Virus record (IMG/VR): IMGVR_UViG_3300046000_007674 | Coordinates: 1-28,228 of that record | Reading direction: 5' to 3' (one strand) | DNA from: a virus | DNA length: 28,228 nt | Part shown: piece by piece, positions 2,158 through 21,637 of the stretch | Numbering within the stretch: the first letter of the stretch is position 1 | Layout: the number at the start of each line of letters is the position of its first letter | The notes under the pieces: generated by a model | The model's database searches: none | The model's input: only the letters and a program-made list of their open reading frames with translations | Told to the model about the DNA's origin: nothing | Position numbers and translations under genes: made by a program

Positions 2158-3057
2158 ATGTCAAAAGAAATTCTATTGACCAGTAATCTCTCTCTAGATT
2201 TTACCATACGGAATGTTAATATATACATAGATGCATGTAAAGAGTTTGGGTATACTACAAGAATTTTACATTCTTTCAATATGCACCGAGAACAAGATAA
2301 CCCATACGGTGCTATAAATTTGGCCGGATATCCAAACGAAACGCATCTGCGTTTTTTTAGAAAATTAGAAATACAGGGCGTAAAGGGTGTAAACTCTGTG
2401 TATAATGCAATGATAGCGGATGATAAAGCATTATTTAATTTAGAAATGATGAAATTAAATATGCCTGTACCTAAAACAGTAGATTTGCATATTTCGTATC
2501 ATGACCGGACCATTCCCGATTATATTGAGAGAGAAGTCGGATTTCCATGTGTCATTAAATTTACTAGGCTAGGATACGGGATAGGAATTCATCTTGCCAA
2601 AACCAAGGAAGAGTTTGAAGGAATATTTGATTTAGTGTCGCTATGCTCATCTAGGTCCGCAAATTACATTTCTAATACTAATTTGATTGCTCAGGAATAC
2701 ATACCTGAAACTAACGGCGGACAACTTAAAGTATTTGTTCTCAATAAAGAAGTTATAGGTAGTTGGTATCAACAACAGAAAAACGGTTGGAAAATTGGTA
2801 AGAAAGGGGACGGAAACAATGTTGCATTGAGGGCCGCTGAAAATAGATTTGAACTTACTAAGATAGAGCCTATGTTAGAGCAAAATTGCATAAAAATATT
2901 CAATGCGCTTGGTATAAATTTTGGTTGTATAGATGTTTTTTTTGGAAAAGATGGTTATCTATTTAATGAAATAAACACTTCGCCGGGATTTGCTAGATGC
3001 TACCTCGATAACATCAAGATCGCACATTTAGTAGTAGGATGGCTTATTTCAAAATAA
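2158..3057 (+). CDS. RimK-type ATP-grasp ligase
   Basis: This 299-aa protein has the order of a RimK/LysX-like ATP-grasp enzyme, which joins an amino acid to a carboxylate through an acyl-phosphate. Visible elements are 'NSVYNAMIADDK' (79-90) and 'MPVPKT' (102-107) of the pre-ATP region, the ATP-contacting strand and loop 'VIKFTRLGYGIGIHL' (132-146), 'AQEYIP' (178-183), and the metal-binding end with D259 in 'CIDVF' and E271/N273 in 'NEINTSPGF'. RimK itself adds glutamate to ribosomal protein S6. The phage substrate is unknown; the upstream 154-aa protein is a candidate by position. The ATG directly abuts the preceding stop codon. Confidence 0.8.
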   Translation: MSKEILLTSNLSLDFTIRNVNIYIDACKEFGYTTRILHSFNMHREQDNPYGAINLAGYPNETHLRFFRKLEIQGVKGVNSVYNAMIADDKALFNLEMMKLNMPVPKTVDLHISYHDRTIPDYIEREVGFPCVIKFTRLGYGIGIHLAKTKEEFEGIFDLVSLCSSRSANYISNTNLIAQEYIPETNGGQLKVFVLNKEVIGSWYQQQKNGWKIGKKGDGNNVALRAAENRFELTKIEPMLEQNCIKIFNALGINFGCIDVFFGKDGYLFNEINTSPGFARCYLDNIKIAHLVVGWLISK

Positions 3058-3118: not shown

Positions 3119-3859
3119 TTATCTCTTGGGTAAAAATAATTTTTCCAAAAGATATCCCAATATATCGTATTTATGAAATCTGGCTCGGCCAGGACGATTA
3201 TGATGGTTTTTATGCCATGCTTCACCACCAATGAATAAGTTAACCCACGGTTTGTTACTAGGAACATCATTGTTCCAGTCATGCGTCCAGGTATTAATGA
3301 ACCCTTCAAAATGAAAAGTTAAAGCAATGGGTGCCCAAAAAATAGCAAGAGCTAAATTAAATGGCAACACAAACAATGAAGTTAGTATAATTGGTAAGTA
3401 AATCCAGTAATAATACTTATGCCAAACAACATGGTGTGTTTTAAGCAAATTAGCTGCATGTCGCGGGTCTACCTTACTAAAAGAGTATCCAAATAATTGG
3501 ACATACCAAGATCCCATAATTTTTGTACTATGTGGATCTTTTTCTGTTCCTTGATACTTATGGTGAGCGCGATGCACTACACTCCAGCTTAATGCACTAC
3601 CTTGTAGACTAAATCCGGCCAAAAACAATCCGAAATATTCTAACCATCCTGGTAATTGTATTGCATTGTGACTGATAGCCCGGTGATAAGTCATGCTAAT
3701 ACCCAAGATAGATACTATATAATGCACTATTAATGCGATGATCAACATTTTCCATTGAATGGATAGCATAAGGTATGCTAGTGCAACATGCCCCAATGCA
3801 ATCCATAAGAAACCGTATAACCTTCTAAAACTAGTGTCTTGAAATCTATTTCGGTTCAT
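3119..3859 (-). CDS. Membrane fatty-acid desaturase 1 (delta-9 acyl-CoA desaturase type)
   Basis: This 246-aa protein is a membrane di-iron desaturase of the stearoyl-CoA/DesC group, which puts a double bond into acyl chains using O2 and electrons. The three histidine boxes are HRAISH (59-64), HRAHH (96-100) and HKNHH (216-220), with the family signature 'DPHS' at 108-111. Two paired hydrophobic stretches (about 15-55 and 152-190) fit four membrane spans. There is no cytochrome b5 fusion, so electrons would come from the host. Its ATG overlaps the end of desaturase 2 by 14 bases, giving a coupled tandem pair. Its C-terminus is shorter than those of the other three and lacks their 'WWE' motif, so it is not a simple recent duplicate. 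Confidence 0.88.
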   Translation of the reverse strand: MNRNRFQDTSFRRLYGFLWIALGHVALAYLMLSIQWKMLIIALIVHYIVSILGISMTYHRAISHNAIQLPGWLEYFGLFLAGFSLQGSALSWSVVHRAHHKYQGTEKDPHSTKIMGSWYVQLFGYSFSKVDPRHAANLLKTHHVVWHKYYYWIYLPIILTSLFVLPFNLALAIFWAPIALTFHFEGFINTWTHDWNNDVPSNKPWVNLFIGGEAWHKNHHNRPGRARFHKYDILGYLLEKLFLPKR

Positions 3860-4607
3860 GTTTAATAAGTCTAATTATCCAGCTGGGAGGATCTATCTCC
3901 CACCATTGTTCACCTTGTTTCCATTGATATGGCTTAGCATGATGATTATTATGCCAACCTTCACCCAAACTCATTAAGTGGGCAATCCAGCTGTTACGAG
4001 ATTCATCATTGACTTGATACGTTTTGTATCCGTGATAATGAGCAATTACAATAATTGAACTGGTTGAGTGTAGACATAAACACGCTGGAATCGCATATCC
4101 AAAAATTACAAGCAATGGATTGACATAGAATAGCATCATGCAATATAGCACGATAATGTACAAATAATATTTGTGTAAAAATTTTTGAAATTTATTTGTT
4201 CGCATGTCACGCACAAGTTTTGGATTCAATGGCAAGTAATTCCAAAATCCCATCCATGCGTTAAATTTTCCAAGTTGATAAGGACTGTGCGGATCCTCTT
4301 TAGTCTCCGCAGTCTTGTGATGCTGCCGATGTATCGCACTCCACGCCATTGGACTGCCGATTGTAGTTACTACCCCAACAATTGACAATATTTGTTCAAT
4401 TATTTTGTGCGTTTGAAAACTACGATGACTAATTAATCTATGATATCCCACATTGACCCCTAAAAGCCCGGTAATTATGTAAAACCCGATACTTATACCC
4501 AACCAGTCGAATGCAGAGGTGACACTAACAAATACTAAACCGACCAACAGCAGCATATGATTGATTAACTGCAATCCTCTTACTAATTGATTGTGGGATA
4601 GTGACAT
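3846..4607 (-). CDS. Membrane fatty-acid desaturase 2
   Basis: This 253-aa protein is a second membrane di-iron acyl desaturase. Histidine boxes are HRLISH (56-61), HRQHH (93-97) with 'EDPHSP' after it, and HNNHH (219-223) inside 'GEGWHNNHH'. 'WWEIDP' (235-240) is a C-terminal motif shared with desaturases 3 and 4. Hydrophobic segments lie at about 15-55 and 148-190. AAAGGT lies a short way before the ATG. It is first in a two-gene unit with desaturase 1, whose start lies inside its 3' end. Presumed substrates are host acyl-lipids or acyl-CoA; chain position cannot be told from sequence. Confidence 0.9.
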   Translation of the reverse strand: MSLSHNQLVRGLQLINHMLLLVGLVFVSVTSAFDWLGISIGFYIITGLLGVNVGYHRLISHRSFQTHKIIEQILSIVGVVTTIGSPMAWSAIHRQHHKTAETKEDPHSPYQLGKFNAWMGFWNYLPLNPKLVRDMRTNKFQKFLHKYYLYIIVLYCMMLFYVNPLLVIFGYAIPACLCLHSTSSIIVIAHYHGYKTYQVNDESRNSWIAHLMSLGEGWHNNHHAKPYQWKQGEQWWEIDPPSWIIRLIKHEPK

Positions 4608-4699
4608 CGTGTACCTTTACGCTATGCTGTATTTAGTATTGATCAGAACTAACCTAGAATTTAAGAAGTTATTACTACCTACTTCAAAAAATACCGGAA

Positions 4700-5362
4700 C
4701 TAGCTATTGCTATTAGTATCCCGGCCCAAAATATTAATTGTTGCGGATATCAACACAATTGGACGTAAAATAGCCCGCGGTAACAATTGTTTTATCAGTC
4801 TAAACGGATAATTGTCAATATCAGCTTGTGTGTTGAAAATATGTTCAACCTGGACAGAATATCGCAAAAATAACAATGTTTTGAAAAACTTACCATTGGA
4901 GAAATAGTCATTCACATTTTTCTCTCGGAGCATACGATTTTGCAATTTTTGTACTGTATAAAATTTCGTGTATCCATCTTGTTCAAATGCGGAATTAATA
5001 ACACACGCTAATGCCTGAAATGGCACTGCAGGGGATTTCCAAGAACGATATTTAAAATACAACAACCCCACTGACCAGTATGGGAGTAATTCATTTCCAT
5101 CATTTCTATGCCAAGTCAACGCAATACTATATCCTACGCTAATTTGCACTAATTCGTTATTGACAAATTTCCCAGCGATTTTGAAAATATTCGCCGGACA
5201 TACTAAGAATTGCCGGCGAATCCAATCTGCATGATTTAATAAATTATCAGTCAAGTATATAGGATTAGGGTGCGCCAATTCATTCTGTTTGTAGTGAGCT
5301 AATATCTCATCCAATTGATGGATATCTTCTAGAGTTAATAAGCGTATTTCATCCATACACAT
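4700..5362 (-). CDS. GNAT-like acyltransferase-fold protein A
   Basis: This protein of about 220 aa (start at ATG 5360-5362) resembles GNAT-fold proteins: an N-terminal helix-rich part, a central beta region around 'KIAGKFVNNELVQISVGY', then 'YWSVGLLYFK' and a helix before 'DGYTKFYTV'. The same block order appears in the gene at 8782-9381, so they form a family. GNAT proteins move acyl groups from CoA or a carrier to amines; I see no clear acetyl-CoA loop, so activity is inferred from fold only. A start at 5413 is also open but would overlap the divergent desaturase gene. It lies 23 bases from that gene, back to back. A decayed paralogue lies at 1073-1660. Confidence 0.55.
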   Translation of the reverse strand: MCMDEIRLLTLEDIHQLDEILAHYKQNELAHPNPIYLTDNLLNHADWIRRQFLVCPANIFKIAGKFVNNELVQISVGYSIALTWHRNDGNELLPYWSVGLLYFKYRSWKSPAVPFQALACVINSAFEQDGYTKFYTVQKLQNRMLREKNVNDYFSNGKFFKTLLFLRYSVQVEHIFNTQADIDNYPFRLIKQLLPRAILRPIVLISATINILGRDTNSNS

Positions 5363-5378
5363 ATTTAGTGCTAAATAT
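5361..5378. promoter_or_regulatory. Inverted repeat between divergent GNAT and desaturase genes
   Basis: ATATTTAG (5361-5368), a 2-base spacer, then CTAAATAT (5371-5378) form a perfect inverted repeat in the tiny gap between the start codons at 5362 (minus) and 5386 (plus). Each arm contains CTAAATAT, one or two changes from the T4 late promoter TATAAATA, but the distances to the start codons leave almost no leader. It could be an operator for both genes. Confidence 0.3.
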
Positions 5379-5385
5379 TGCAACA

Positions 5386-6162
5386 ATGAAAAATACTCGC
5401 ATTTTCGTAGCATTCAGTTTACTATTGGTCATTTTAGGAATAGTATCAATCTGGTTTATCCAAAATTGGTGGTTGGTGGGGCTACTATGGATCATAAGAA
5501 CCTTAATAAATGGAGTGATAGCACATCGTTATATAGCACATGGGCAGTTTTCCGTACATAGCACTCTACATAATGTATTTGCATACCTGACTAGCTTAAG
5601 TGCTTACAGCACCCCAATGTATTGGAGAATTGAGCATCTGCATCATCATGCCACTAGTGATACTACTCAAGATATACATAGCCCTATTAACGGCAGAGCT
5701 AATTCCTTTTTGCTGTGGTCGTTCAATGTCAACAGAATTAATGCTGTTTTTAAAAATAAGAAATCAGTCCGCAGTTTGAAACAAGTAAAACAAGATAAAC
5801 ACATTATGTACGCATCAGATTATTTCGTGTTCATCAATATTATCTTTTTAGTATTACTGTTTTTTATAGATATCAATTTATTTTTTGCATGGAATGTTGG
5901 TTACCTGCTGGAGCACATAAAGATTGGAATTATCAATTGGATACTGCATGAACCACGATTTCCGGGCAATTATCGTAATCACGATACCACAGATCAAAGT
6001 TTCAATAATGTTTTTTTGGGATTAATAACATTCGGGTTTGGTTGGCATAATAATCATCATGCTAATTGTAAAAAATTAATACTCACTGAGCATTGGTGGG
6101 AGGTAGATTTGGAGGGCCAAATTGGAAAGATGATTGCATGGATGTGCCCCCAAAGGAATTAG
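5386..6162 (+). CDS. Membrane fatty-acid desaturase 3 (lone plus-strand member)
   Basis: With start ATG 5386 this is a 258-aa membrane desaturase; an upstream GTG at 5368 is also in frame but overlaps the divergent gene's promoter area. Numbered from that GTG, the boxes are HRYIAH (53-58), HLHHH (90-94, the HxxHH box with an extra His) followed by 'DIHSP', and HNNHH (227-231) in 'FGWHNNHH'. 'EHWWEVD' (241-247) matches the C-terminal motif of desaturases 2 and 4. Hydrophobic stretches (11-45, 151-180) are typical membrane segments. It is the only plus-strand gene of the island between 3119 and 11436, and is paired back to back with a GNAT-like gene. Confidence 0.87.
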   Translation: MKNTRIFVAFSLLLVILGIVSIWFIQNWWLVGLLWIIRTLINGVIAHRYIAHGQFSVHSTLHNVFAYLTSLSAYSTPMYWRIEHLHHHATSDTTQDIHSPINGRANSFLLWSFNVNRINAVFKNKKSVRSLKQVKQDKHIMYASDYFVFINIIFLVLLFFIDINLFFAWNVGYLLEHIKIGIINWILHEPRFPGNYRNHDTTDQSFNNVFLGLITFGFGWHNNHHANCKKLILTEHWWEVDLEGQIGKMIAWMCPQRN

Positions 6163-6191
6163 ACTATGGTTTTGCCTCACTGCATTGAGCA

Positions 6192-6878
6192 CTACTCTCT
6201 AGAAGTGAATTTATGTTTACCAGTCCCAAATCCAAGCACGGTTATGGATTCCGGGTCGGTTTGATCAGTGATACCAAATCGGGTTATTGCGGCTAGTAAT
6301 CGGCTAGGTTTCCAATAATCAAACCCCAAAAAATACCAATCGCGGTCAGTGTAATTGACAAACTCATGCTTCTCGGTATATGGGTCAAAGCTAAACAACA
6401 GTCCCGGTGCAACTTCTATTTCCGTATTACGGATGCAAATTTTTGCTTCAGATTTGGTTTGTGTTCCGATACAAAATATGTATCTAGTAATATGAGAATG
6501 ATAAACCAAGTGATCCACATGCGGAAGAAGACCGGATTTGGGCGGGATCTTCCATATGCACATTCTCCCAAATGGGCCGGTCTCATTAATCAATGGCCGC
6601 AAAAAATTACAAAACTCTAACGCTTTGCTAAACTTGGGATTATACTCATACTGATTTTTGACTGCCATATACGTCATACTCGGGACATTGAAATAATTTA
6701 GATTGCGATTGATAAATTTCATTCGGCCCTGTGCAAAGATGCCAATCGCTCTCGGTGACGACACCCCATATATATCAACTGTGCCGTGTGGACACCACCA
6801 TGGAACTTCGTTATCAGCCTCAATTTCATCACGTATGATATTAGCCCAGTCCTTAAAATGCATTATTTTTTCATACAT
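6192..6878 (-). CDS. 2OG-Fe(II) oxygenase, aspartyl/asparaginyl beta-hydroxylase-like
   Basis: This 228-aa protein looks like a soluble member of the aspartyl/asparaginyl beta-hydroxylase group. 'GPFGRMCIWKIPP' precedes the HxD metal pair H120/D122 in 'LLPHVDH'; 'TRYIFCIGT' follows, with R132; the distal His is H171 in 'EKHEFVNYTDRDW' and R179 is the likely 2OG anchor. These enzymes hydroxylate Asp/Asn side chains of proteins, though phage members have no known substrate. It is the only gene here with an exact TATAAATA late promoter at a normal distance. It is convergent with desaturase 3, 29 bases away. Confidence 0.72.
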   Translation of the reverse strand: MYEKIMHFKDWANIIRDEIEADNEVPWWCPHGTVDIYGVSSPRAIGIFAQGRMKFINRNLNYFNVPSMTYMAVKNQYEYNPKFSKALEFCNFLRPLINETGPFGRMCIWKIPPKSGLLPHVDHLVYHSHITRYIFCIGTQTKSEAKICIRNTEIEVAPGLLFSFDPYTEKHEFVNYTDRDWYFLGFDYWKPSRLLAAITRFGITDQTDPESITVLGFGTGKHKFTSRE

Positions 6879-6895
6879 AATTTTCTTTCTAATTA

Positions 6896-6903
6896 TATTT
6901 ATA
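6896..6903 (-). promoter_or_regulatory. T4-type late promoter TATAAATA
   Basis: An exact TATAAATA reads on the minus strand and ends 17 bases before the ATG at 6878. By the T4 rule the start point falls near 6890, leaving a 12-base leader (AGAAAGAAAATT) with a weak GAAAG ribosome site. This suggests the oxygenase gene is expressed late and that the phage encodes a gp55-like late sigma factor elsewhere. Confidence 0.6.
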
Positions 6904-6913
6904 CTTCATATTT

Positions 6914-7528
6914 CTACAAGAAAGGATTAAGAATATTGTAAGTTATAAGATAACGATTACTTTTAGAATGTTTTTCTACTAAGGTTTTTACTGTATGTGC
7001 ATTTTTTACAGCGACTAGATATACGTCACCATCAGATGTTATATATGAATATTGATGCTTATCCCAATAAGCATCAGTTGAGCTATCTGTTGTTATATAG
7101 GTTTTACATGAATTTGAATTTTTTAGACCAATATTTATTGCATAATTTCTAGTAGAATCATAATGGGGCAAAACGTTGATACCTGATTGAATTCGTATTA
7201 AATTAACATTACGAGGATTTATTTTTAATTTTAAAAATATATCATTTAGCTTAGATTCCGGCGTTGTTGTATCTTTTCTTAAAGTATGCTGTAATTCAAT
7301 AAGTTGACTTGCTATATCTGAACATTCTTTATTAAAATTTATATAAAAATTTCTAGCAAAAGAAATTCCTATGTTGTATGTTTGCCAGTGTGGGGTTCCC
7401 TCTGAGTTACTAAATGGACTTTTGTCTTTTCCAATAGTCTCGGCAAATGATTCGGTCATTGCCTCAGGATCCCATGGGATAACAAAATTAGTAGATAGTT
7501 TTAAAAAAGGAACATCGTAACTATTCAT
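6914..7528 (-). CDS. 2OG-Fe(II) oxygenase-like protein
   Basis: This 204-aa protein carries the double-stranded beta-helix signature of 2OG oxygenases: H122/D124 in 'NVLPHYDSTRNYAINIGL', distal H178 in 'VKNAHTV' and R192 in 'SNRYLITYNI'. The block order and the 'RYLITY' ending match the protein at 10276-10872 closely, so the two are paralogues. The N-terminal 100 residues are specific and may bind the substrate. AAGGAG lies about 11 bases before the ATG. The gene ends 35 bases before the next oxygenase start. The function is presumably hydroxylation of a peptide or small molecule; the target is unknown. Confidence 0.7.
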   Translation of the reverse strand: MNSYDVPFLKLSTNFVIPWDPEAMTESFAETIGKDKSPFSNSEGTPHWQTYNIGISFARNFYINFNKECSDIASQLIELQHTLRKDTTTPESKLNDIFLKLKINPRNVNLIRIQSGINVLPHYDSTRNYAINIGLKNSNSCKTYITTDSSTDAYWDKHQYSYITSDGDVYLVAVKNAHTVKTLVEKHSKSNRYLITYNILNPFL

Positions 7529-7564
7529 TTTGAGATCAACTCCTTGTTATCAACTTCAATAAAT

Positions 7565-7927
7565 TCATTCTTCTATCTTTCTTAAAAATTTAAGATTGCC
7601 TATTGATGTTAATTGACCGCTAACAATTAATATAAATCTAGATGTGCTGTTGTTAACAGGAACTCGGTGTGGATAATTACTGCCATTAATACAAAACACA
7701 GTATTTGATTTCGTAGGTATAATTTCATATACTTTATCTTCTACCATATCCTGTGTAATCTTTTTTCGCTCTCTTCCGTGTTCTAAAAACTCTGATTTTA
7801 ATTTACTCATTTCTAAAAATGTTTTACCAGGATCTAATCCAAAACATAATCTAAAACCATATCCTGCGATATTTCTTCCAGCTAGTTCTGAACGACTGCC
7901 AGCTAAGATTATCCCATGATAAATCAC
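7565..7927 (-). pseudogene. C-terminal remnant of a 2OG-Fe(II) oxygenase-like gene
   Basis: The only available start is GTG 7927, preceded within nine bases by an in-frame TGA, and just 55 bases separate it from the upstream desaturase gene. The 120-aa frame contains what looks like the distal half of an oxygenase: 'NTVFCINGSNYPHRVP' with H87 and 'SRFILIVSG' with R97. No HxD metal pair is visible ahead of it, and there is no room for the missing N-terminus. I read it as a 5'-truncated copy that probably lacks metal binding; a small cupin-like protein of other function remains possible. The remaining codons contain no stop. Confidence 0.45.
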
Positions 7928-7982
7928 ACAACTATCTCACGGTTGGAATTGACGCAGTAAATAGTAAAGGACATTTAAGATT

Positions 7983-8774
7983 TTATTTTAAAAATATTTT
8001 GAATATATTACAGGGATCCCATTCCCACCACTTGCTGCTAATGGATTTGCCAAAATCATATGATTTTGGATCATAGTGATGATTGTTATGCCACCCTTGA
8101 CCCCATCCCAGATATCCAAAAATGACATTGTTTTGTGAATTATCGTTCGTGTTGAAGTTACGATAGCCAATCATACATTTTAAATGGCCAAATACGTTCA
8201 CTAAGTTATCTTGAATCAATGCAAGTGCAGTTGGCAAACATATCAGCGTAAGACTAAGTTTCCAATTAAAAAGTGCTACTATTATAGGTACTGCCCACAG
8301 AATTGACATTTGATGTGTGTGAAACCAAATATGATTGGACTTTCTGAGTAAGTTCGCTGAATATTTTAGATTGATGATAGGGTTGGCCTCATTGATCTTG
8401 GTAGCCCATCCAAAAAAAGCATGATATATGCCTTTGACGGGACTATGTAAATCTCGCTCAGTATCACTATGATTATGATGGTATCCTCGATGTATGGTTG
8501 CCCATGTAATAGATGACCCTTCCCCACTTAGTGTTCCCAAGAATAGCAGTATATTTTCTTTCCATCTAGGAAGATTCGGATAGTTATTGTGAGCAAATAT
8601 TCTATGGTAGCCGGCTGCTACTCCAAGCCCGGGAATCAAGATCCAACCAATTATAGTAAACCACAAGTAATAACTAGGAATTATACCTAACACCAATAAA
8701 GTTACAGTAAACATACCAAGGCTCACAAATGGAACAAAGCTAAACCAGGAATATTTTGAAATACGCTTAAACAT
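7983..8774 (-). CDS. Membrane fatty-acid desaturase 4
   Basis: This 263-aa protein is the fourth membrane di-iron desaturase. Boxes are HRIFAH (57-62), HRGYHH (95-100) and HNNHH (229-233) in 'GQGWHNNHH'; 'RDLHSP' (107-112) follows the second box and 'KWWEWDP' (248-254) is the shared C-terminal motif. The second box is HxxxHH rather than the HxxHH of its three relatives; both spacings occur in the wider superfamily. Hydrophobic spans are at about 10-55 and 155-195. The ATG follows the stop of the GNAT-like gene by 7 bases, so they are probably co-transcribed. Confidence 0.88.
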   Translation of the reverse strand: MFKRISKYSWFSFVPFVSLGMFTVTLLVLGIIPSYYLWFTIIGWILIPGLGVAAGYHRIFAHNNYPNLPRWKENILLFLGTLSGEGSSITWATIHRGYHHNHSDTERDLHSPVKGIYHAFFGWATKINEANPIINLKYSANLLRKSNHIWFHTHQMSILWAVPIIVALFNWKLSLTLICLPTALALIQDNLVNVFGHLKCMIGYRNFNTNDNSQNNVIFGYLGWGQGWHNNHHYDPKSYDFGKSISSKWWEWDPCNIFKIFLK

Positions 8775-8778
8775 GTAG

Positions 8779-8786
8779 TATTTATA
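8779..8786 (-). promoter_or_regulatory. TATAAATA match overlapping a gene junction
   Basis: An exact TATAAATA reads on the minus strand, overlapping the stop codon of the GNAT-like gene and ending only 4 bases before ATG 8772-8774. By T4 spacing transcription would begin inside this start codon, so it would serve a leaderless or later start, or be a chance match. Confidence 0.3.
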
Positions 8787-9381
8787 TCCGGCCGCATTGA
8801 GGCAAATGATTGCGATACTGTTGCTTCAAAAAGGTACAACGCACCACCACATCGGTTGGGAGAAGAGTACGATTAAACAAGATTTGCCATGGCAAGGTGA
8901 ATTTACACATGGTTTTGGCACTAACTTCAAATTCATCAAAATAGTCATAACGTTCGCTGTTTACCTTGCTAAACGCTAGTTTACGATATGTTTTGATATA
9001 TCGTTTTGGAAACATGCTATAGAATTTTAATCGGCCTTGTGCCTCGTTATGTGTCATAACGGCATCCAGAATTAGCTTTATATCAGCAGCATTCTTACCT
9101 AGGGTGCGTACTTGATTCCAATACCAACTTGCATCTTCGATGGATTCATGGAACCCTATCGCAGCGGTTATTTCTCCTAAGTTGTTGATTGAGCCATATG
9201 CATGGTAAGTGGTAAGATCCGTCAAATACGTATTGCAAAATATTGAATGGAGCATTTCTTCTATCTTAACATTTGGTCCAACAAAATAATTTGTCTGGTG
9301 ATTTACTCCCATGAATTTATGAGTCTGAAATAGTGGCTTAATTAGCTCAGAGTGAGTGTGGTTTAATTTTACAATGTTCAT
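8782..9381 (-). CDS. GNAT-like acyltransferase-fold protein B
   Basis: This 199-aa protein shares block order with GNAT-like protein A (4700-5362): a strand around 'AIGFHESIEDASWYWNQVR', a helix, then 'GRLKFYSMFPKRYIKTYRKLAF' and a basic C-terminal end ('FLKQQYR'). The fold suggests acyl-CoA or acyl-carrier transfer to an amine, without a motif that proves it. Its ATG overlaps the stop of the PP-loop gene (ATGA), and it leads directly into desaturase 4, so it sits in the middle of a coupled operon. A GNAT-like gene beside a desaturase is seen twice in this window, which supports an acyl-chain role. Confidence 0.5.
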   Translation of the reverse strand: MNIVKLNHTHSELIKPLFQTHKFMGVNHQTNYFVGPNVKIEEMLHSIFCNTYLTDLTTYHAYGSINNLGEITAAIGFHESIEDASWYWNQVRTLGKNAADIKLILDAVMTHNEAQGRLKFYSMFPKRYIKTYRKLAFSKVNSERYDYFDEFEVSAKTMCKFTLPWQILFNRTLLPTDVVVRCTFLKQQYRNHLPQCGRI

Positions 9382-10295
9382 ATTTGGTTTTTCAATTGTT
9401 TCACTACAGCCGAATATTCAATGCCATCAATGCTAGGTTCCAGTCGTAGAAGTTGACTACTGGTTAATTGCCGATATGCCTCAAAATTAAAACCTAGCAA
9501 TTTTTCAAACCCGTGTGTTTTTCTACGGTCTCTGACATAAGGACAAAGTCTACGTAATATAGTATTCTTGGAAGTTACTGACGATAGCTTGTAATTGAGT
9601 GGGGCCGTCACCAAGTCAACAATGCCCGGATCAGTTAAGTAATATAACAATAGTTCAGGTGTATAACTAAACCATTCATTTACCAGTGGAATATTGTAAG
9701 TAAGGCTGAAACGCATGGCACTTGCATCTTCATTTTCGCGGATACAATAATACCAAGAGCTAGGTGAGGTGGCTATGTTTCTCTTAAGCAATACTTCTCC
9801 TCCCATGACTGACGGGATACCCAATTTTAAAATACAGTGATATACCATTAAATACGTAATCTGTGTACACTGAATTTTATTGCCGAATTCGGCTGCTTCT
9901 CCGCTGCGTAAGAAGTCCTTAACGTCAAAGTCAATGACATGCAACGGAACCTTAAGTTCTGCTGCTAAATCAACGGCTTCGGCTACATCAGATGCGTTGT
10001 ATTCATCCTTGAATTTGATAGTGTAACAGACCGGGGTAACACCAATGTCTAAGAAATTACGTGCGACGATCTCACTATCAGTGCCACCACTAAGAAACAG
10101 CGCAAACTCTTTACCAAGATCATTGTACACTAGTTCAGCGGTTCGCAGTAATTCATTCTGATAGCTACTATGTTTATAATTTTCTGAATCAACTTGCCCC
10201 ACTGAAAGTATATATGGCTCGACTGAATTTTGGCGTTCACTATACAATCTGCCGCCAATTGTATATCTCAAATGGTTATTTTGCGTGAAGTTCAT
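9378..10295 (-). CDS. Asparagine-synthase-like PP-loop ATP pyrophosphatase
   Basis: This 305-aa protein contains an N-type ATP pyrophosphatase loop, 'LFLSGGTDSEIVAR' (67-80), followed by the typical strand 'VTPVCYTIKF' and 'ELKVPLHVIDFD'. This domain adenylates a carboxylate, as in the C-terminal half of asparagine synthetase, or a heterocycle as in QueC. The glutaminase half of asparagine synthetase is absent, so it would need free ammonia or another amine donor. It could form an amide on a small molecule or peptide. The start overlaps the preceding oxygenase gene by 20 bases and its stop overlaps the next ATG. Confidence 0.68.
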   Translation of the reverse strand: MNFTQNNHLRYTIGGRLYSERQNSVEPYILSVGQVDSENYKHSSYQNELLRTAELVYNDLGKEFALFLSGGTDSEIVARNFLDIGVTPVCYTIKFKDEYNASDVAEAVDLAAELKVPLHVIDFDVKDFLRSGEAAEFGNKIQCTQITYLMVYHCILKLGIPSVMGGEVLLKRNIATSPSSWYYCIRENEDASAMRFSLTYNIPLVNEWFSYTPELLLYYLTDPGIVDLVTAPLNYKLSSVTSKNTILRRLCPYVRDRRKTHGFEKLLGFNFEAYRQLTSSQLLRLEPSIDGIEYSAVVKQLKNQI

Positions 10296-10872
10296 TTTTA
10301 AACTCTTTTTCTAAAATTTCATACGTTACCCCAAATCCATATGTAATTAGATATCTAGGACTATCATTTAGACACTCAACTGAATGAAACTGATTGGTAT
10401 TCAATAAATAGGCATGACCTTCGTCTATCGTAGTAGTATAATGATTGACGTTAAAATTTTCTTTTATACCATCATTGCTCATCTTAGTAAGCGCACCAGA
10501 ACTGTTTCTTACACCTATATTAATACATGCGGTTCGTCCGGCTTCATCTTTGTGAGGAGTAATATTTCCTTTGGTACGTATTAAATGTATCCGTTCTATT
10601 TGAACCGGGATACTTGATGGAAATATATTTTCAAGTATATGATATACTTTTTGAGTCATTTTTTTTAAAACAGGATGATTAGACGTATGCCTAGTAAATG
10701 ATATTGATCCGATCACGTTTCCTTCATTCTTGTACTCCCTCCAATATGGATAATCAGGTAATTTAAAATATCTTCCATATCTGTGAACAACCGTTTCTAA
10801 TTTTTCAGCTTCATTAATGTATGACTGAAATTCATTCGGATCTATTAATTTTCCTAAAGGAAGTATTTCCAT
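10276..10872 (-). CDS. 2OG-Fe(II) oxygenase-like protein
   Basis: This 198-aa protein has the 2OG oxygenase signature H107/D109 in 'ITPHKDEAGRTACINIGVRN', distal H163 in 'NTNQFHSVE' and R173 in 'SPRYLITYGF'. It is a paralogue of the gene at 6914-7528, with the same spacing between HxD and distal His and the same 'RYLITY' strand. It is second in a five-gene minus-strand run (GNAT-like, oxygenase, PP-loop enzyme, GNAT-like, desaturase), ending inside the PP-loop gene. The start ATG 10870-10872 follows the upstream stop by 15 bases with no strong ribosome site, in line with coupling. Confidence 0.72.
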   Translation of the reverse strand: MEILPLGKLIDPNEFQSYINEAEKLETVVHRYGRYFKLPDYPYWREYKNEGNVIGSISFTRHTSNHPVLKKMTQKVYHILENIFPSSIPVQIERIHLIRTKGNITPHKDEAGRTACINIGVRNSSGALTKMSNDGIKENFNVNHYTTTIDEGHAYLLNTNQFHSVECLNDSPRYLITYGFGVTYEILEKEFKNELHAK

Positions 10873-10887
10873 TATAGTTATGTGAGA

Positions 10888-11436
10888 TTATTTGCTGTCA
10901 TTTTTATACTCTACTACATATTGTTCTGTATAGTATATATACTTTTTACCAATTGGTTTGAATTTTCTATAGATATCAGGCCAGTCATTGAACATTCCAG
11001 GACTCTTCCCCGCGGCTGCACGAACAAACCACTGATATATTGCACTATTGTAGGAATCCGCAGTAATATATAAATGTTTATACTGCATAGTACTCTCAAT
11101 GATTTTAGGTAGAATATATTCTCCCATAAAATATTTAGCTCTAAATTTTGGGTTTATGTAGGCCCTAGTGAGTGCAAGTGCTATTGTTTGATCTAGATCA
11201 TATTCATTGTATCCAGCACTACATACATATTCACCTTCATTTTCCAAGACATAATAACATCCGCGGTGATATCTACCATTAATATCATTTAAAATGTAAA
11301 AAATGTTAGCAGATTCATTACGATAATCAGGATGATAATTTTTGATAGTATTGGTATCAGTTATTTTAGAAAAGGATTCCTCTAACAAGCCTAGTACAAA
11401 CTCATTAGAAGAATCGTGAAGTTCATATAATACCAT
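10888..11436 (-). CDS. GNAT-like protein C
   Basis: This 182-aa protein resembles GNAT-fold proteins: 'YYVLENEGEYVCSAGY' as the central strands, then 'LALTRAYINPKFRAKYF', where an acyl-CoA-binding turn would sit, a helix 'EYILPKIIEST', then 'HLYITADSYNSAIYQWFVRA', in which the Asn-x-x-Ile-Tyr helix is typical of the fold's C-terminal half. It is less like proteins A and B than they are like each other. It heads the minus-strand operon running to desaturase 4. A GATAAATA late-promoter-like box lies 72 bases upstream. Activity is inferred, not shown by catalytic residues. Confidence 0.5.
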   Translation of the reverse strand: MVLYELHDSSNEFVLGLLEESFSKITDTNTIKNYHPDYRNESANIFYILNDINGRYHRGCYYVLENEGEYVCSAGYNEYDLDQTIALALTRAYINPKFRAKYFMGEYILPKIIESTMQYKHLYITADSYNSAIYQWFVRAAAGKSPGMFNDWPDIYRKFKPIGKKYIYYTEQYVVEYKNDSK

Positions 11437-12222: not shown

Positions 12223-12786
12223 TTAGTCTTGGGAATTATCTGCTACAACAACCCAACCTAATTTGAATAAATCTTCACGGATTTCTTCTGTCACTATGCT
12301 TTCAGAAACATAAGATTTGATTTCAAAAAAATCTTGTTTTTGATGGTCATCCATATTCTGAAATAGTTCTTCATCAATTGGGTCATCATTCCGTATACCA
12401 CTACAATACCAATCTATGTAGTCACCTTCTTCACGCATATCGGCGATAATTGATCCTGCATGTCTCCAACTACAACTCCATTTTTTCTCGGTTAGTATAG
12501 GCCATACTTCATTTCTCATAAAATCATTATTACATAAAGCGGCGTATATATGTTGAGCATATGCTTTATCGCTTTTAGCTTTTTCTATGATCCACTCAGT
12601 GGTTCGCAAATCATATTCTAAGTTATCTTTCTTCCAATCAGAGTCTTGATCTAATAACTTATCCGCACTGTCATTATCTTCATAAAGTTCTATCATATCC
12701 TTAGCAGTTTTGTTTAATGGATTTTCTGCCAAATCTGTTCTATATCTTTTGATTCTAAATTCATTTCTTGTCGGGCTTCTGTTCAT
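12223..12786 (-). CDS. Conserved phage hypothetical protein
   Basis: This 187-aa acidic protein is not one I can give a function. It has a central part rich in conserved-looking aromatic residues ('KKWSCSWRHAGSIIADMREEGDYIDWYCSGI') and a C-terminal part 'SIVTEEIREDLFKLGWVVV' that ends with a likely helix and strand. There is no signal peptide or membrane segment. The ATG lies 26 bases inside the 3' end of the lysin gene with AAAAGG just ahead, so the two are co-translated. Proteins of this look are common hypotheticals in T4-like phages, as far as I recall. Confidence 0.6.
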   Translation of the reverse strand: MNRSPTRNEFRIKRYRTDLAENPLNKTAKDMIELYEDNDSADKLLDQDSDWKKDNLEYDLRTTEWIIEKAKSDKAYAQHIYAALCNNDFMRNEVWPILTEKKWSCSWRHAGSIIADMREEGDYIDWYCSGIRNDDPIDEELFQNMDDHQKQDFFEIKSYVSESIVTEEIREDLFKLGWVVVADNSQD

Positions 12787-16819: not shown

Positions 16820-17920
16820 TTATAAATTTGGTAGTTGATCGTAATCTAGCTGGTCGCTCATAACACCAAGGACATAGTTTGTACTCTCGGTTTCTTGAAG
16901 CGCAGATTGCTTCTTACTAGTATCCACATGTTTAGTAAACCAGGGAATAGGAGTACTTCTTGGAGCATTGCCTTGATACTTAATACCAATTTCTTTCAAC
17001 GCTCCTACTGCGGTGTAATCAACAAAGTCTTTTAATACATTAGCATTCAGCCCAATAACCGGGCCTTTGTTAAACAAGTAATCTGCCCAGGCTTTTTCTT
17101 CACGGATTACATCCATGTACAATTGCTGAACTTCCCCTTCGCATTGTTGCTTAATATTAGCAAAACGGGTATCTTCTTTGATTACTTGATTAATAATGTA
17201 GGCAGTCCAGCCTTTATGTAGAAGTTCATCTTGGAGAATTAAACTGATAATATTGCCATTACCAATAAAGATTTTGTTCTCAACCATTGCTAAACTTGTA
17301 GCAAATGATACCATAAATCGGAATGCTTCCAAAGCGTATGAAGCATGTAAAGCCATCCAAATTGCTCTTATATGTTCAGATTCTTCTACGGGTTGACCCA
17401 ACTCTTTAGCACAGTTAATTCTGTGTAGGTCATCGTAATACTTTCCAACACTGCTGGCCATATCAATGATTTGTTGTGTATCATGTATAGTATTAAATAT
17501 ATCTTTTGGCACAGAATAAATGTTACGAATAATGTGACTGTAACTCTTACTATGAACATTAGTTTCAAAGAAGGTCCAGTTGTATATTAGAGCTTCTAGT
17601 TCAGGCAAACTGACTACTGGCATGAATACTTGACTTGGGGCTCGTCCTTGTAAACTATCTAATGCTGTTTGTCTTAGTAAGTTGCTAGTAAATATATGCT
17701 TCACTGCATCACTAGCATCTTTGAAGTCATTGGCATCTTTAGTTAAGCTGATTTCTTCAGGTTGCCAAAAGAACCCACGTGCTGTTTCTTCAAACTTAGC
17801 AATCTTTGGATACTTTACTTCCTCAAAGCGTTGAATTGTGACAGGACCTGCAGGGTCCAGAAACATCTTACGATTTAGATAATCTGATTGTTTTGATAAG
17901 TCATATTGGTGTTTACTCAT
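16820..17920 (-). CDS. nrdB: Ribonucleotide reductase class Ia small subunit
   Basis: Starting at ATG 17918-17920, which overlaps the nrdA stop (ATGA), this 366-aa protein is the di-iron, radical-bearing subunit. Ligands are D62 in 'PEEISLTKD', E119 and H123 in 'FETNVHSKSY', E198 in 'ALEAFRF', and E232/H235 in 'DELLH'. Tyr127 matches the radical tyrosine Y122 of E. coli. The ligand pair reads ExxxH instead of the ExxH of E. coli and T4 (ETIHSRSY), an unusual one-residue insertion. 'LDSLQGRAP' and 'HIIRNI' are otherwise typical. The C-terminal tail should dock to NrdA. Confidence 0.93.
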   Translation of the reverse strand: MSKHQYDLSKQSDYLNRKMFLDPAGPVTIQRFEEVKYPKIAKFEETARGFFWQPEEISLTKDANDFKDASDAVKHIFTSNLLRQTALDSLQGRAPSQVFMPVVSLPELEALIYNWTFFETNVHSKSYSHIIRNIYSVPKDIFNTIHDTQQIIDMASSVGKYYDDLHRINCAKELGQPVEESEHIRAIWMALHASYALEAFRFMVSFATSLAMVENKIFIGNGNIISLILQDELLHKGWTAYIINQVIKEDTRFANIKQQCEGEVQQLYMDVIREEKAWADYLFNKGPVIGLNANVLKDFVDYTAVGALKEIGIKYQGNAPRSTPIPWFTKHVDTSKKQSALQETESTNYVLGVMSDQLDYDQLPNL

Positions 17921-19005
17921 AATGTACAGCTTTCGCAATTTTCTTCTTCATCAAAATCAATTGGTTCTAACATTGTTGGTGCTGTCTCATCATCGGCTTT
18001 ACTACCGGCTTTATTAAGAAGTGAATAATAGAAGGTCTTTAGACCATAATAATGACCTTGCATCAAGTTCTTTGCGATCAATGTAGTTGGTACTTTTCTG
18101 TCAGTGAAATGTTTTGGGTTGTAAAAGGTATTTACAGAAATAGCCTGATCAACATAAGCTGCTAATACCGCTGCTGTTTTCAGATAACCATCACAATCTT
18201 TTTGTTCCCACATCAATTGATATTTGTGCTTTAGTTTTTGATATTCCGGAACAACTTGAGTGAAACTTCCCGCTTTGCTTTCTTTTACTGATATCAAACT
18301 CATTGGCATTTCAATGCCGTTTGTGCTATTGATAACCACACTGCTTGATTCTACAGGAGCAATGGCCATTTGTGTAGCATTACGGACGCCATGTTCTTTC
18401 ATGTTTGTGCGTAGTGTTTCCCAATCTAATTCAGGAGCAAAGTTTGCTAGTTCATTAACACCTTTGGCACGTAGTTCCCAGGGAAAGGTACCTTGACCAT
18501 ATCGTGTTTGTGCGCTGTGTGTACACGGACCTCGTTCACGGGCAAGCTCTACTGAGGCTTCTGTTAAGTAAAAGGCTTGATGTTCCATCCAAGTTTTAAC
18601 TTCGGATAGCGCGTCCTTCTCTCCATACTTCAAACTACGCTTTGCATGCCAGTAAGCTAGATTAGTGACACCAATACCCAATGGGCGAATCTCATCATTG
18701 CTTAGTTTAGATTGAATTGAGAGAAAATCTTGATAATCAAGTATATTATTGAGACTACGATGCAGAATGCGGCAAGCACGGCGCATATCTTCTGGGTGTC
18801 TAAACGATCCCCAATTAATACTTCCAAGTGTGCATAAACTTATCCTGCCGGTGTCGTCATCTAATCTCTTAAACGACTTGTTGGGTAAAATCACCTCAGC
18901 ACAGTTATGCACTAAAATCTCGTTTGCGAAAAAGCATTCAGTTCCGGGAACTGTTATATCATACACATCAGTTGGATCTACCTTTATTTTTTTAATTTTA
19001 ATCAT
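17917..19005 (-). CDS. nrdA: C-terminal half: intein-C plus NrdA C-extein
   Basis: The 362-aa product begins with 34 residues of split-intein C-part, ending 'VYDITVPGTECFFANEILVHN', with the terminal Asn34 needed for cleavage. The C-extein begins at Cys35 (codon 18901-18903) as 'CAEVILP' and supplies the rest of the large subunit to the redox-active end 'CESCTL'. Protein trans-splicing with the product of 19982-21637 would rebuild a NrdA of about 772 residues, close to the 761 of E. coli. The ATG overlaps the stop of the endonuclease gene (ATGA), so translation is coupled. 'SLCTLGSIN' holds the cysteine matching C462 of E. coli. Confidence 0.92.
   Translation of the reverse strand: MIKIKKIKVDPTDVYDITVPGTECFFANEILVHNCAEVILPNKSFKRLDDDTGRISLCTLGSINWGSFRHPEDMRRACRILHRSLNNILDYQDFLSIQSKLSNDEIRPLGIGVTNLAYWHAKRSLKYGEKDALSEVKTWMEHQAFYLTEASVELARERGPCTHSAQTRYGQGTFPWELRAKGVNELANFAPELDWETLRTNMKEHGVRNATQMAIAPVESSSVVINSTNGIEMPMSLISVKESKAGSFTQVVPEYQKLKHKYQLMWEQKDCDGYLKTAAVLAAYVDQAISVNTFYNPKHFTDRKVPTTLIAKNLMQGHYYGLKTFYYSLLNKAGSKADDETAPTMLEPIDFDEEENCESCTL
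18904..19005 (-). other. Split intein, C-terminal fragment (34 residues)
   Basis: Block F/G of a class 1 intein: 'VYDITVPGTECFFANEI' followed by 'LVHN' and then Cys+1. It carries no endonuclease domain. Together with the 107-residue N-part it makes a mini-intein of about 141 residues, similar in organisation to the NrdA split inteins of 'fractured genes' described from marine metagenomes (Dassa et al. 2009). Confidence 0.9.
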
Positions 19006-19949
19006 ACTTTAATCTTTCCTTTTACAAAATCTGAATGCTCTTTACAAAATTCTTTTTCATTTGTTACTCTGATATTAGTTATTCCGTTGTTATACCAACG
19101 ATGTTTTGCTGAATGAGCCGACGCAATCTTTCGTTGTTCTTCACTTCTATGATAAGGAGAATATTTAATGTCAAGATTCATATTTATATTTGTCTCAATG
19201 ATTAAGTTTTCCAATGATCCAAATTTATTACCAATCCACACTAAAGAAATTTTCTTAAATTCAGTAAATTCTGTTTTCATATTATCCCCTAATAAATTTA
19301 ATTTAAGATATCCTTGTTGGCATGATTCTGAAACACATTTCCACATTCTCTCTCTTCGGTCTTGCGTTAATTCTTTATAGTTATTATTAGCAGAGCCTTT
19401 TTGAGATTTTCTTTTTTCTGGCATAGTATTAGAAGGTAATCCTTTGCTATGATGTATCCATTCTCCGGATAATACCTTAGGATGATCAACTGAAACAGAC
19501 CCTAGCTTTTCTCTAGTAATAGCGTCAACTGCGGGCATCTTTCCTGTTCTTGCTTTACTAATACATTCGATGCCAAGTATTCTCAGATGATCCATTTCTT
19601 TAAGAAACTTTATATCAACATCCGATAGATTAATCTGTCGTTTATGATTACCTGTTGCTTTTACAAAAAAGAATTGCAGTGCAGAACCAGATGAGTATTC
19701 ATAACGAGTTCCTTTATAAATCTCATACAAATAGTAGTGAGCCATTAAGTGTTCGGAGAAAGTCAATAAAATTAGATTTTCTTCACCATCGGGATTACCG
19801 TCTAGATGACCCGCAGGGCCTGTTCTCTTTCTGTTCTTGTATAAGAAATCAGGAACAATGTGGTGACGCTCGTAATAGGTTCCTTGATATTTCATTCTGT
19901 TTTCTTTTCTTGCGTTGTCCATTAATTTTTTGTAAAGTTCTTTGTACAT
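19002..19949 (-). CDS. HNH homing endonuclease between the two nrdA halves
   Basis: This 315-aa protein has an N-terminal HNH nuclease domain: 'YERHHIVPDF' (H29, H30), 'GEENLILLTFSEHLMAHYYL' (N58, H67, H71). A middle part ('DHPKVLSGEWIHHSKG') and a C-terminal 'HRWYNNGITNIRV' resemble DNA-binding repeats of phage HNH homing enzymes. It would cut nrdA alleles that lack the insertion and so spread the split gene. It is a free-standing gene, not part of the intein protein. A late-promoter-like box and a hairpin covering its start codon lie just upstream. Its stop overlaps the start of nrdA-C. Confidence 0.85.
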   Translation of the reverse strand: MYKELYKKLMDNARKENRMKYQGTYYERHHIVPDFLYKNRKRTGPAGHLDGNPDGEENLILLTFSEHLMAHYYLYEIYKGTRYEYSSGSALQFFFVKATGNHKRQINLSDVDIKFLKEMDHLRILGIECISKARTGKMPAVDAITREKLGSVSVDHPKVLSGEWIHHSKGLPSNTMPEKRKSQKGSANNNYKELTQDRRERMWKCVSESCQQGYLKLNLLGDNMKTEFTEFKKISLVWIGNKFGSLENLIIETNINMNLDIKYSPYHRSEEQRKIASAHSAKHRWYNNGITNIRVTNEKEFCKEHSDFVKGKIKV

Positions 19950-19973
19950 ATGATTTCCTCATATGTATTTATG
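19947..19973 (-). promoter_or_regulatory. Late promoter-like box and ribosome-site hairpin of the endonuclease gene
   Basis: On the minus strand CATAAATA (19966-19973) is one base from TATAAATA. Directly after it CATATGA (19959-19965) and TCATATG (19947-19953) form a perfect 7-base stem with loop GGAAA. The stem contains the start codon and the loop part of the ribosome site GAGGAAA. T4 spacing puts the late start near 19960, inside the 5' arm, so a late transcript could not form the stem while a longer one could. Confidence 0.6.
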
Positions 19974-19981
19974 CCTGGTAA

Positions 19982-21637
19982 TCACATTTCAACACATAAC
20001 TCGTCAGTTTCTATCAATTCATCCGCCCTTACATAGCCTCTATTTTTAGTAAAAATACGGTGAGCAGGTGTGCATACAATCACATTGTTATTTTCATCTT
20101 GAATTTCAATTAATTCAGTGACGGTAGCAGTCTGTGCTGCTGCTGAAACAGGCATCCAAGTGACTCGGTCTTTTTTAATATCATAGCTTTTAACCAACGC
20201 ATCACTGAATCTACCTAATTCATACTGTTCAACAAAATCTTGTAATTTTAGTGTTAGTTCAATTTTGTTTGTTCTAATTTGAATTTTAGTATCACCTGTC
20301 AGACAAAGATTGGACTGATAGATTGGGTGTACTTTAGGATCAAACGGACCTTGATTTTGTACATTATCAGTGTACATCAAATAGATGCGACCGGTGTCAG
20401 TACGTTCTTTTAAGATGCCGCCTTTAAAAACTTCTTCGGCAGAAATTATTTTCTTACGCAAGTCTTTCCGGGTTTCGTATTTCACATAGAGTTCTTCAAA
20501 GAGTGAAATATCACTGTAAAATGCTTCATACAAGTCAGGGACTTCATTAGGATCAAAAAATGTAATGTTTTCTTTGTTTTTAAATCTTCTCCAGAAGAAA
20601 GCACTTAATACTACAGCATAGTCTAGGTGTCTGACACGATTTTCTTCTGTTCCTTGATTATTCTTCAACACAATAAGATCATCAAACTGGTAATGCCAGA
20701 TTGGAAAATACACAGTACATGAGGCGTTGCGGATCCCACCCTGCGAACATGAACGCAGATCGCCAAACCACTTCTTTAAAAATGGTATCATACCTGTATG
20801 CATAATCTCACCCCCGCGAATGGGTGAACCAAGTGGTCGTAGCCTACCAATCTCTAGTCCAATTCCAGCACGTTTACTAGCATATTTGGCCATCATCTCA
20901 CCAGAAGCGAAAATACTATCCAAGTCATCATCACTCCGAATAAGTACGCACGAACTGAATTGCTTAGTAGGGGTACCGAGACCAGCAAGGACAGGAGTAG
21001 CAAGGGTAAATAGCCCATCACTTGCTGCATTGTAGTATTCCTTTATATAACGCATTCTAGCATTATTCGGTTCTTCACTGTGGAACACTGTTGCTGCCGC
21101 AACCATATATCTAACTTGCGGAGTTTCATATATTTCCTTCGTTGAACGATTCTTTACCAGATACTTTTCAATCAATTGTTCAATGGCGGCATAACTATAT
21201 GTCTCATCCTTAGAATGATCTATCAAATCATCCATCTTATTCCAATCTTCTTCACTATACCATTCTAGTAATTCACTAGTATATAATCCAGTTGCTACAT
21301 TTCTTTTAACAATATCGTAGAGATGAGGAACCTCATATTGACCATAAACGTCTTTCCTGAGCATACTCATACGTTGCTTACCGGCTACATATTGATAGTT
21401 TGTGTGCCCAATATCTATATTTGATTCTACGTCAATCAAATCAACTATTGCTCTAAGTGTTATGTTATCTATTTGACTTGTGGTAATACCATCATAAAAA
21501 TGTAGTTGAGATTTAATCTCAATCATACTTGGGCTTACATCTGCTATTCCATTACATACTTTTGCAACTTGTGCTTGCCATTTTTCAAGCATTATCGGCT
21601 CTTTTTTACCACTGCGTTTAATAACGTTTATACCCAT
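19982..21637 (-). CDS. nrdA: N-terminal half: NrdA N-extein plus intein-N
   Basis: The 551-aa product has 444 residues of ribonucleotide reductase large subunit and 107 of intein. The N-terminus 'MGINVIKRSGKKEP' is the start of an ATP-cone; 'QFSSCVLI' holds the cysteine matching C225 of E. coli; 'SKRAGIGLEIG' and 'GGIRNASCTVYFP' are active-site and barrel segments. The N-extein stops at 'IYQSNL', and Cys445 begins the intein, which has 'CLTGDTK' and the conserved block B 'CTPAHRIF'. This half alone lacks the radical cysteine and must be spliced to the half encoded at 17917-19005. AGGTGA lies just ahead of the ATG. Confidence 0.92.
   Translation of the reverse strand: MGINVIKRSGKKEPIMLEKWQAQVAKVCNGIADVSPSMIEIKSQLHFYDGITTSQIDNITLRAIVDLIDVESNIDIGHTNYQYVAGKQRMSMLRKDVYGQYEVPHLYDIVKRNVATGLYTSELLEWYSEEDWNKMDDLIDHSKDETYSYAAIEQLIEKYLVKNRSTKEIYETPQVRYMVAAATVFHSEEPNNARMRYIKEYYNAASDGLFTLATPVLAGLGTPTKQFSSCVLIRSDDDLDSIFASGEMMAKYASKRAGIGLEIGRLRPLGSPIRGGEIMHTGMIPFLKKWFGDLRSCSQGGIRNASCTVYFPIWHYQFDDLIVLKNNQGTEENRVRHLDYAVVLSAFFWRRFKNKENITFFDPNEVPDLYEAFYSDISLFEELYVKYETRKDLRKKIISAEEVFKGGILKERTDTGRIYLMYTDNVQNQGPFDPKVHPIYQSNLCLTGDTKIQIRTNKIELTLKLQDFVEQYELGRFSDALVKSYDIKKDRVTWMPVSAAAQTATVTELIEIQDENNNVIVCTPAHRIFTKNRGYVRADELIETDELCVEM
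19985..20305 (-). other. Split intein, N-terminal fragment (107 residues)
   Basis: Begins with Cys1 (codon 20303-20305) as 'CLTGDTKIQI' and ends 'ETDELCVEM'. Block A, the strand 'ALVKSYDIKKDRVTW' and block B 'CTPAHRIFTKNRGYVRADEL' are all recognisable, with Thr and His of the TxxH motif. No endonuclease domain is inserted. The break after this part is the usual natural split site of inteins. Confidence 0.9.

Follow-up and report, generated by a model that had tools for sequence, protein, structure and literature searches.

What does a phage do with four different membrane desaturases? This question is raised by virus record IMGVR_UViG_3300046000_007674 from IMG/VR, which was analysed over its whole length of 28,228 bp (hereafter the window) and in which four desaturase genes, termed D1 to D4, are clustered at positions 3119–8774. 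Phage desaturases are usually classed as membrane-fluidity genes, and a preliminary description of the locus had offered altered host membrane fluidity or an unusual acyl product as possible roles. We find that D4 is the predicted third member of a conserved virus-only operon, together with a PP-loop ATPase and a GNAT-fold protein, and that all four enzymes appear to be ancient, virus-diversified diiron desaturases of the DesC/SCD type. We propose that the D4 operon carries out carrier-protein-linked acyl tailoring, yielding a specific, probably amide-bearing, acyl product, a reading to which we give even chances.

Sequence features of the four desaturases

Four open reading frames (ORFs) exceed the curated cut-off of PF00487, three on the minus and one on the plus strand, at exactly the coordinates at which the preliminary description had placed four complete desaturases in two orientations:

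3119..3859, minus strand: D1, membrane desaturase (PF00487 E 1.1e-12; nine His and Asn)
3846..4607, minus strand: D2, membrane desaturase (PF00487 E 7.9e-19; nine His, Ile for Asn)
5386..6162 (alternative start 5374), plus strand: D3, membrane desaturase (PF00487 E 5.7e-17; nine His and Asn)
7983..8774, minus strand: D4, membrane desaturase and third gene of the conserved viral operon (PF00487 E 8.8e-12; nine His and Asn)

None of the four contains an internal stop; the genes of D1 and D2 overlap by 14 bp, and the D3 ORF opens at GTG 5368. In sequence comparisons with the acyl-CoA desaturase structures 4ymk/4zyo (mouse/human), each protein gives a match at E 9e-7 to 3e-22, and these scores, taken together with those for PF00487, exclude chance resemblance. 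When 74 viral and 41 bacterial representatives were aligned, D1 to D4 proved to keep all nine diiron-ligand His of SCD1 (HxxxxH, HxxHH, H, HxxHH), so that no iron ligand has been lost at the sequence level. The second-shell Asn near the lone His is kept in D1, D3 and D4, whereas D2 and close relatives of it have Ile; among the rows with nine His, this Asn is present in all 35 bacterial ones and missing in 15 of the 69 viral ones. D2 is the most SCD1-like of the four and D3 the most divergent. At the tunnel end (aligned to the tunnel-end Ala of SCD1, before the first His) the four carry I, L, T and G, a position which is too variable in both the viral and the bacterial set to suggest a chain length. 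Against the equivalog DesA family NCBIfam NF049918 they score 45–82 bits, well below the 400 bits required for membership. The ratio of non-synonymous to synonymous substitution rates (dN/dS) is about 0.08–0.12 for close orthologue pairs with estimable dS, with dS near saturation in most, a sign of purifying selection.

A variant of the last box, QxxHH, in which Gln replaces the first His as in front-end-type desaturases, was seen in three copies on viral contig L074 and at 11429–12205 of L077.

Phylogeny and recurrence among viruses

D2, D3 and D4 share 23–34% pairwise identity with D1, and in a phylogenetic tree the four are placed in four separate viral clades, which rules out a recent tandem duplication, in line with what had been suspected from their divergence. 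D2, D3 and D4 fall within a group of 34 rows that is entirely viral (SH-aLRT 96), D1 within another, mostly viral one. It should be noted that the tree was a quick one, computed with no mixture model and containing many long branches, so that its deep joins are uncertain; that the four are separate and akin to viral genes does not hinge on these joins. Top viral matches reach 74% for D4, 72% for D1, 63% for D2 and 39% for D3, for which no close viral relatives were found, compared to 29–34% for the top bacterial matches. The nearest bacterial homologues found are DesC-like enzymes of cyanobacteria and planctomycetes. Separate ancient lineages are therefore supported, whereas the separate specificities that had been read from the divergence are plausible only.

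Relatives of the desaturases occur on at least 531 viral contig stretches, and their gene order recurs in independent metagenomes, the overlapping D2–D1 pair being present in L008 and the operon of D4 on dozens of contigs. D1 orthologues at 70–72% identity are found in L007 and L008, in the latter directly after D2. Four or more PF00487 matches were counted in 7 of 50 desaturase-bearing records examined, one isolate phage included, with the window as an eighth. In one bacterial phylum, of which 80 genomes were sampled, just 16 have a relative, mostly as one copy. Two matches labelled 'Acinetobacter phage MD-2021a' (CAKLQH020000002.1 and CAKLQF020000003.1, locus L006) were set aside, since with trp, accD and two-component-system genes they resemble a mislabelled bacterial chromosome.

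Further arrays were observed on the related contigs. At 5210–10744 of L074, a 77-kb viral contig, seven desaturases follow each other in uninterrupted tandem, mostly overlapping or near-abutting, and at 12589–15591 of L066 a run of four paralogues, each about 250 aa long, lies beside desaturases. Beside the D1/D2 orthologues of L007 (12235–18311) and at the equivalent places of L009 and L010, four radical-SAM genes are arrayed with a QueC-like PP-loop gene, one gene of the L007-type array having a weak SPASM match; these arrays are possibly another phage pathway. A second QueC-like/desaturase cassette, next to D1/D2 orthologues, is present in just 4 viral contigs, too few for a claim of conservation.

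Several desaturases in one phage are a known kind of gene content, given the five-copy viruses of cryopeg brine, the cyanophage desaturases and Pelagibacter phage Mosig EXVC030M, and the preliminary description had missed this published and recurrent class of multi-desaturase viruses. The desaturase of Mosig (MT647606) is 34% identical to D1 and lies beside Asp_Arg_Hydrox and aminotransferase genes, near tail fibres; unlike the window, Mosig has a single copy and encodes a 2Fe-2S ferredoxin, with no match to the PP-loop protein or GNAT-a. Going by its title, a study by Roitman et al. (2018) reportedly treats the distribution, diversity and function of cyanophage lipid desaturases; through citations only, cyanophages are known to share phage-borne membrane desaturases with the window. 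Cyanophage desaturases are also cited in PMC7300359, which describes five desaturases in each of two cryopeg-brine viruses (follow-up in PMC10405475). Like those of the window, these are SCD-type enzymes with three His boxes in clades without microbial members; they differ in their predicted Pseudomonas hosts and in their membrane-fluidity interpretation, and operon partners are not mentioned in the available text (PMC7300359).

The D4 operon

Upstream of D4, two genes complete the core of the operon:

9378..10295, minus strand: AsnB/QueC/LarE-like PP-loop ATPase with the motif SGGxDS; opens the core operon as its first gene
8782..9381, minus strand: GNAT-a, a GNAT-fold protein (AlphaFold2 and Foldseek); second gene

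The PP-loop gene overlaps GNAT-a by 4 bp, and D4 comes after GNAT-a. Viral contigs were searched separately with the PP-loop gene alone and with GNAT-a alone. All 44 close PP-loop loci with complete flanks carry GNAT-a and, within 6 kb, a desaturase, whereas of 26 control loci centred on IscU, a neighbouring gene, 5 have a desaturase (Fisher p 1.7e-13, with near-copies among the loci still counted). After reduction to non-redundant PP-loop loci (<80% identity), a desaturase is retained in 28/29 and GNAT-a in 29/29, near-adjacent and on the same strand, while GNAT-a loci with full flanks have both partners in 41/41. Overlaps of 4 bp are the commonest junctions, and both gene orders, pp-GNAT-des and des-pp-GNAT, are found, which argues for a functional rather than a merely inherited linkage.

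The GNAT fold of GNAT-a is indicated by an AlphaFold2 model (pLDDT 86) with Foldseek matches to GNAT acetyltransferases at E 4e-7. In the PP-loop protein, SGG and DS of the P-loop SGGxDS are invariant in 39 sequences; its model has a pLDDT of 94, with Foldseek TM values of about 0.3–0.4, which are too low to separate the LarE, MnmA and AsnB types. With 305 aa and 17 bits against a cut-off of 267, it is not a full asparagine synthase (glutamine-hydrolysing). GNAT-a gave no match in 84,980 bacterial/archaeal species genomes, in a scan that relies on short conserved peptides, and neither GNAT-a nor the PP-loop gene gave a match in 50,697 annotated phages. The operon formed by PP-loop ATPase, GNAT-fold protein and desaturase is new, being undescribed as far as the open-licence literature shows, and by these searches D4 appears to belong to a conserved, virus-only unit.

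In many relatives the operon extends to an acyl carrier protein (ACP) of 72–81 aa with a DSL motif, encoded upstream of the PP-loop gene and after a further gene, GNAT-b. Three of four stand-alone ACPs tested exceed the PF00550 cut-off, with the fourth just under it; in L141, GNAT-b and ACP are fused. ACP lies directly upstream in 13 of 29 non-redundant operon loci at the same identity threshold. The corresponding part of the window reads:

10276..10872, minus strand: Asp_Arg_Hydrox-like 2-oxoglutarate (2OG) gene, below cut-off, at the ACP position of relatives
10888..11436, minus strand: GNAT-b family protein, whose relatives precede ACP

These partners bear directly on the main rival to a dedicated product, general membrane unsaturation, in which the four enzymes, acting at different chain positions or lengths, would make host membrane lipids more unsaturated and thereby aid infection in cold water. 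Such remodelling is in keeping with the PF00487/SCD family identity of D1 to D4 and with the DesC-like nature of their nearest bacterial homologues, and it has been proposed for cyanophages and, in the model of PMC7300359, for cryopeg viruses. However, it leaves unexplained both the near-invariant partnership of D4 with PP-loop ATPase, GNAT and ACP and the need for four to seven diverged copies, where so few genomes of the sampled phylum have any relative, and we consider it rather unlikely as the explanation of this locus. Of the two roles suggested in the preliminary description, membrane fluidity is not supported as the leading one, and the unusual acyl product is favoured by the ties of D4 to the PP-loop ATPase, to two GNAT-type genes and, in roughly half of the relatives, to ACP.

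Viral setting and neighbouring genes

The source of the window is a freshwater-type bacterial virus. The desaturases share their contig with both ribonucleotide reductase (RNR) subunits, glutaredoxin, PAAR, an IscU/NifU-like gene, a SleB endolysin and collagen-like tail fibres, as auxiliary genes of a virus would. The closest relatives of the RNR small subunit are found in large Xanthomonas and Stenotrophomonas phages (54–62%). Since the virus record carries RNR, PAAR, endolysin and fibres and many viral contigs show an orthologous arrangement, bacterial contamination is ruled out and the assignment to a phage genome holds.

The RNR large subunit of the window (17917–21637, minus strand) is split: an intein N-half, with CLTGDTKI as its first residues, closes the N part, an intein C-half, whose final HN precedes CAEV, opens the C part, and a free-standing homing endonuclease ORF (19002–19949) lies between the two. 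The layout resembles that known from fractured genes with split inteins.

The remaining genes around the desaturases are:

2158..3057, plus strand: RimK-like ATP-grasp ligase, adjoining the desaturases; pathway membership only putative
4700..5413 (start may be 5356–5362), minus strand: protein of 237 aa that resembles a GNAT by eye only; no family match
6192..6878, minus strand: Asp/Asn beta-hydroxylase-like 2OG enzyme, Asp_Arg_Hydrox just above cut-off
6914..7528, minus strand: 2OG-type hydroxylase-like, paralogue of 10276–10872 in the same sequence cluster, no own Pfam match

Profile comparison gave no GNAT support for 4700–5413 or for L007 7901–8521. Asp_Arg_Hydrox-like genes accompany 35 of 56 operon loci and a TauD-like family 24 of 56. 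A 120-aa ORF at 7565–7927 (minus strand), by eye like part of a 2OG-type enzyme and with a stop just upstream in frame, is possibly a decayed gene.

Cargo of this kind, next to tail-fibre genes on a contig with collagen-like fibres and close to 2OG enzymes, could also serve to decorate the virion or a glycan, with desaturases, hydroxylases, GNATs and ligases modifying tail fibres, capsid or a surface glycolipid, and the setting in Mosig is similar. We regard this as improbable, since ACP and membrane diiron enzymes indicate acyl chains and no glycosyltransferase was tied to the operon in this analysis.

Proposed pathway

We return to carrier-protein-linked acyl tailoring, for which bacterial polyyne pathways, combining several PF00487 desaturases with ACP, are a precedent (PMC8406139). 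The steps, in their presumed order, would be as follows. An acyl (or aminoacyl) chain would be bound through a thioester to a small ACP; many relatives encode this protein themselves, whereas in the lineage of the window it would come from the host. D4 would then strip hydrogens from the chain with O2 and electron donors, which are presumably those of the host, since the window encodes neither a rubredoxin nor a 2Fe-2S ferredoxin. The PP-loop ATPase may adenylate a carboxylate and so give an amide or thioacid; polyketide pathways have amidotransferases that act on ACP-bound substrates. The GNAT-fold proteins could move an acyl or acetyl group onto an amine, giving as product a specific acyl metabolite or lipid, unsaturated and with an amide, which the nearby 2OG hydroxylases might trim further. 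The overlapping pair D1/D2 and D3 would introduce additional double bonds or use different chains as substrates; D1 to D3 may serve the same product as D4 or general lipids.

Several observations weigh against this pathway. The operon ties cover D4 only, D1 to D3 being linked by proximity alone. ACP is absent from the window and from many relatives, including contigs of 100–177 kb, and was not found elsewhere on the ACP-less operon contigs as far as these are assembled; ACP dependence here therefore rests on the relatives and on host supply. The acyl-CoA loop of GNAT-a motif A, Q/RxxGxG/A, is partly kept (R in 38/41, G in 26/41). Finally, a fatty-acyl-AMP ligase is missing from the window and from 31 of 34 contigs, and a rubredoxin is present in just 2 of the 34.

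These last two absences also bear on a polyyne-like acetylenic product, for which the four enzymes would serially desaturate one ACP-bound chain as in jamABC/polyyne clusters. The likeness lies in the tandem PF00487 genes, in the ACP of relatives and in changed active-site residues of some copies, as several such desaturases act together with ACP in the jamABC clusters too. These clusters, however, contain fatty-acyl-AMP ligase, thioesterase and rubredoxin, in contrast to the PP-loop ATPase and GNATs of the phage operon, which are not polyyne genes (PMC8406139). No thioesterase is found among the annotated neighbours, although no family search was aimed at thioesterases. For want of ligase and rubredoxin we rejected membership in a polyyne cluster, and we hold an acetylenic product to be very improbable.

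Conclusions

More specifically, and more tentatively, we suggest that a virus-only, ACP-linked operon of GNAT-b, ACP, PP-loop ATPase, GNAT-a and diiron desaturase makes a dedicated lipid-derived metabolite during infection, which would constitute an undescribed kind of phage natural-product pathway; this is possible, at somewhat less than even odds. The combined operon was not found in cells within the searches made here. The concrete set of five genes makes the question of what phage desaturases produce directly testable. If the proposal is true, some phages would have an acyl chemistry of their own, run by a conserved virus-only operon in which a desaturase is joined by a carrier protein, an ATPase and proteins of acyltransferase fold.

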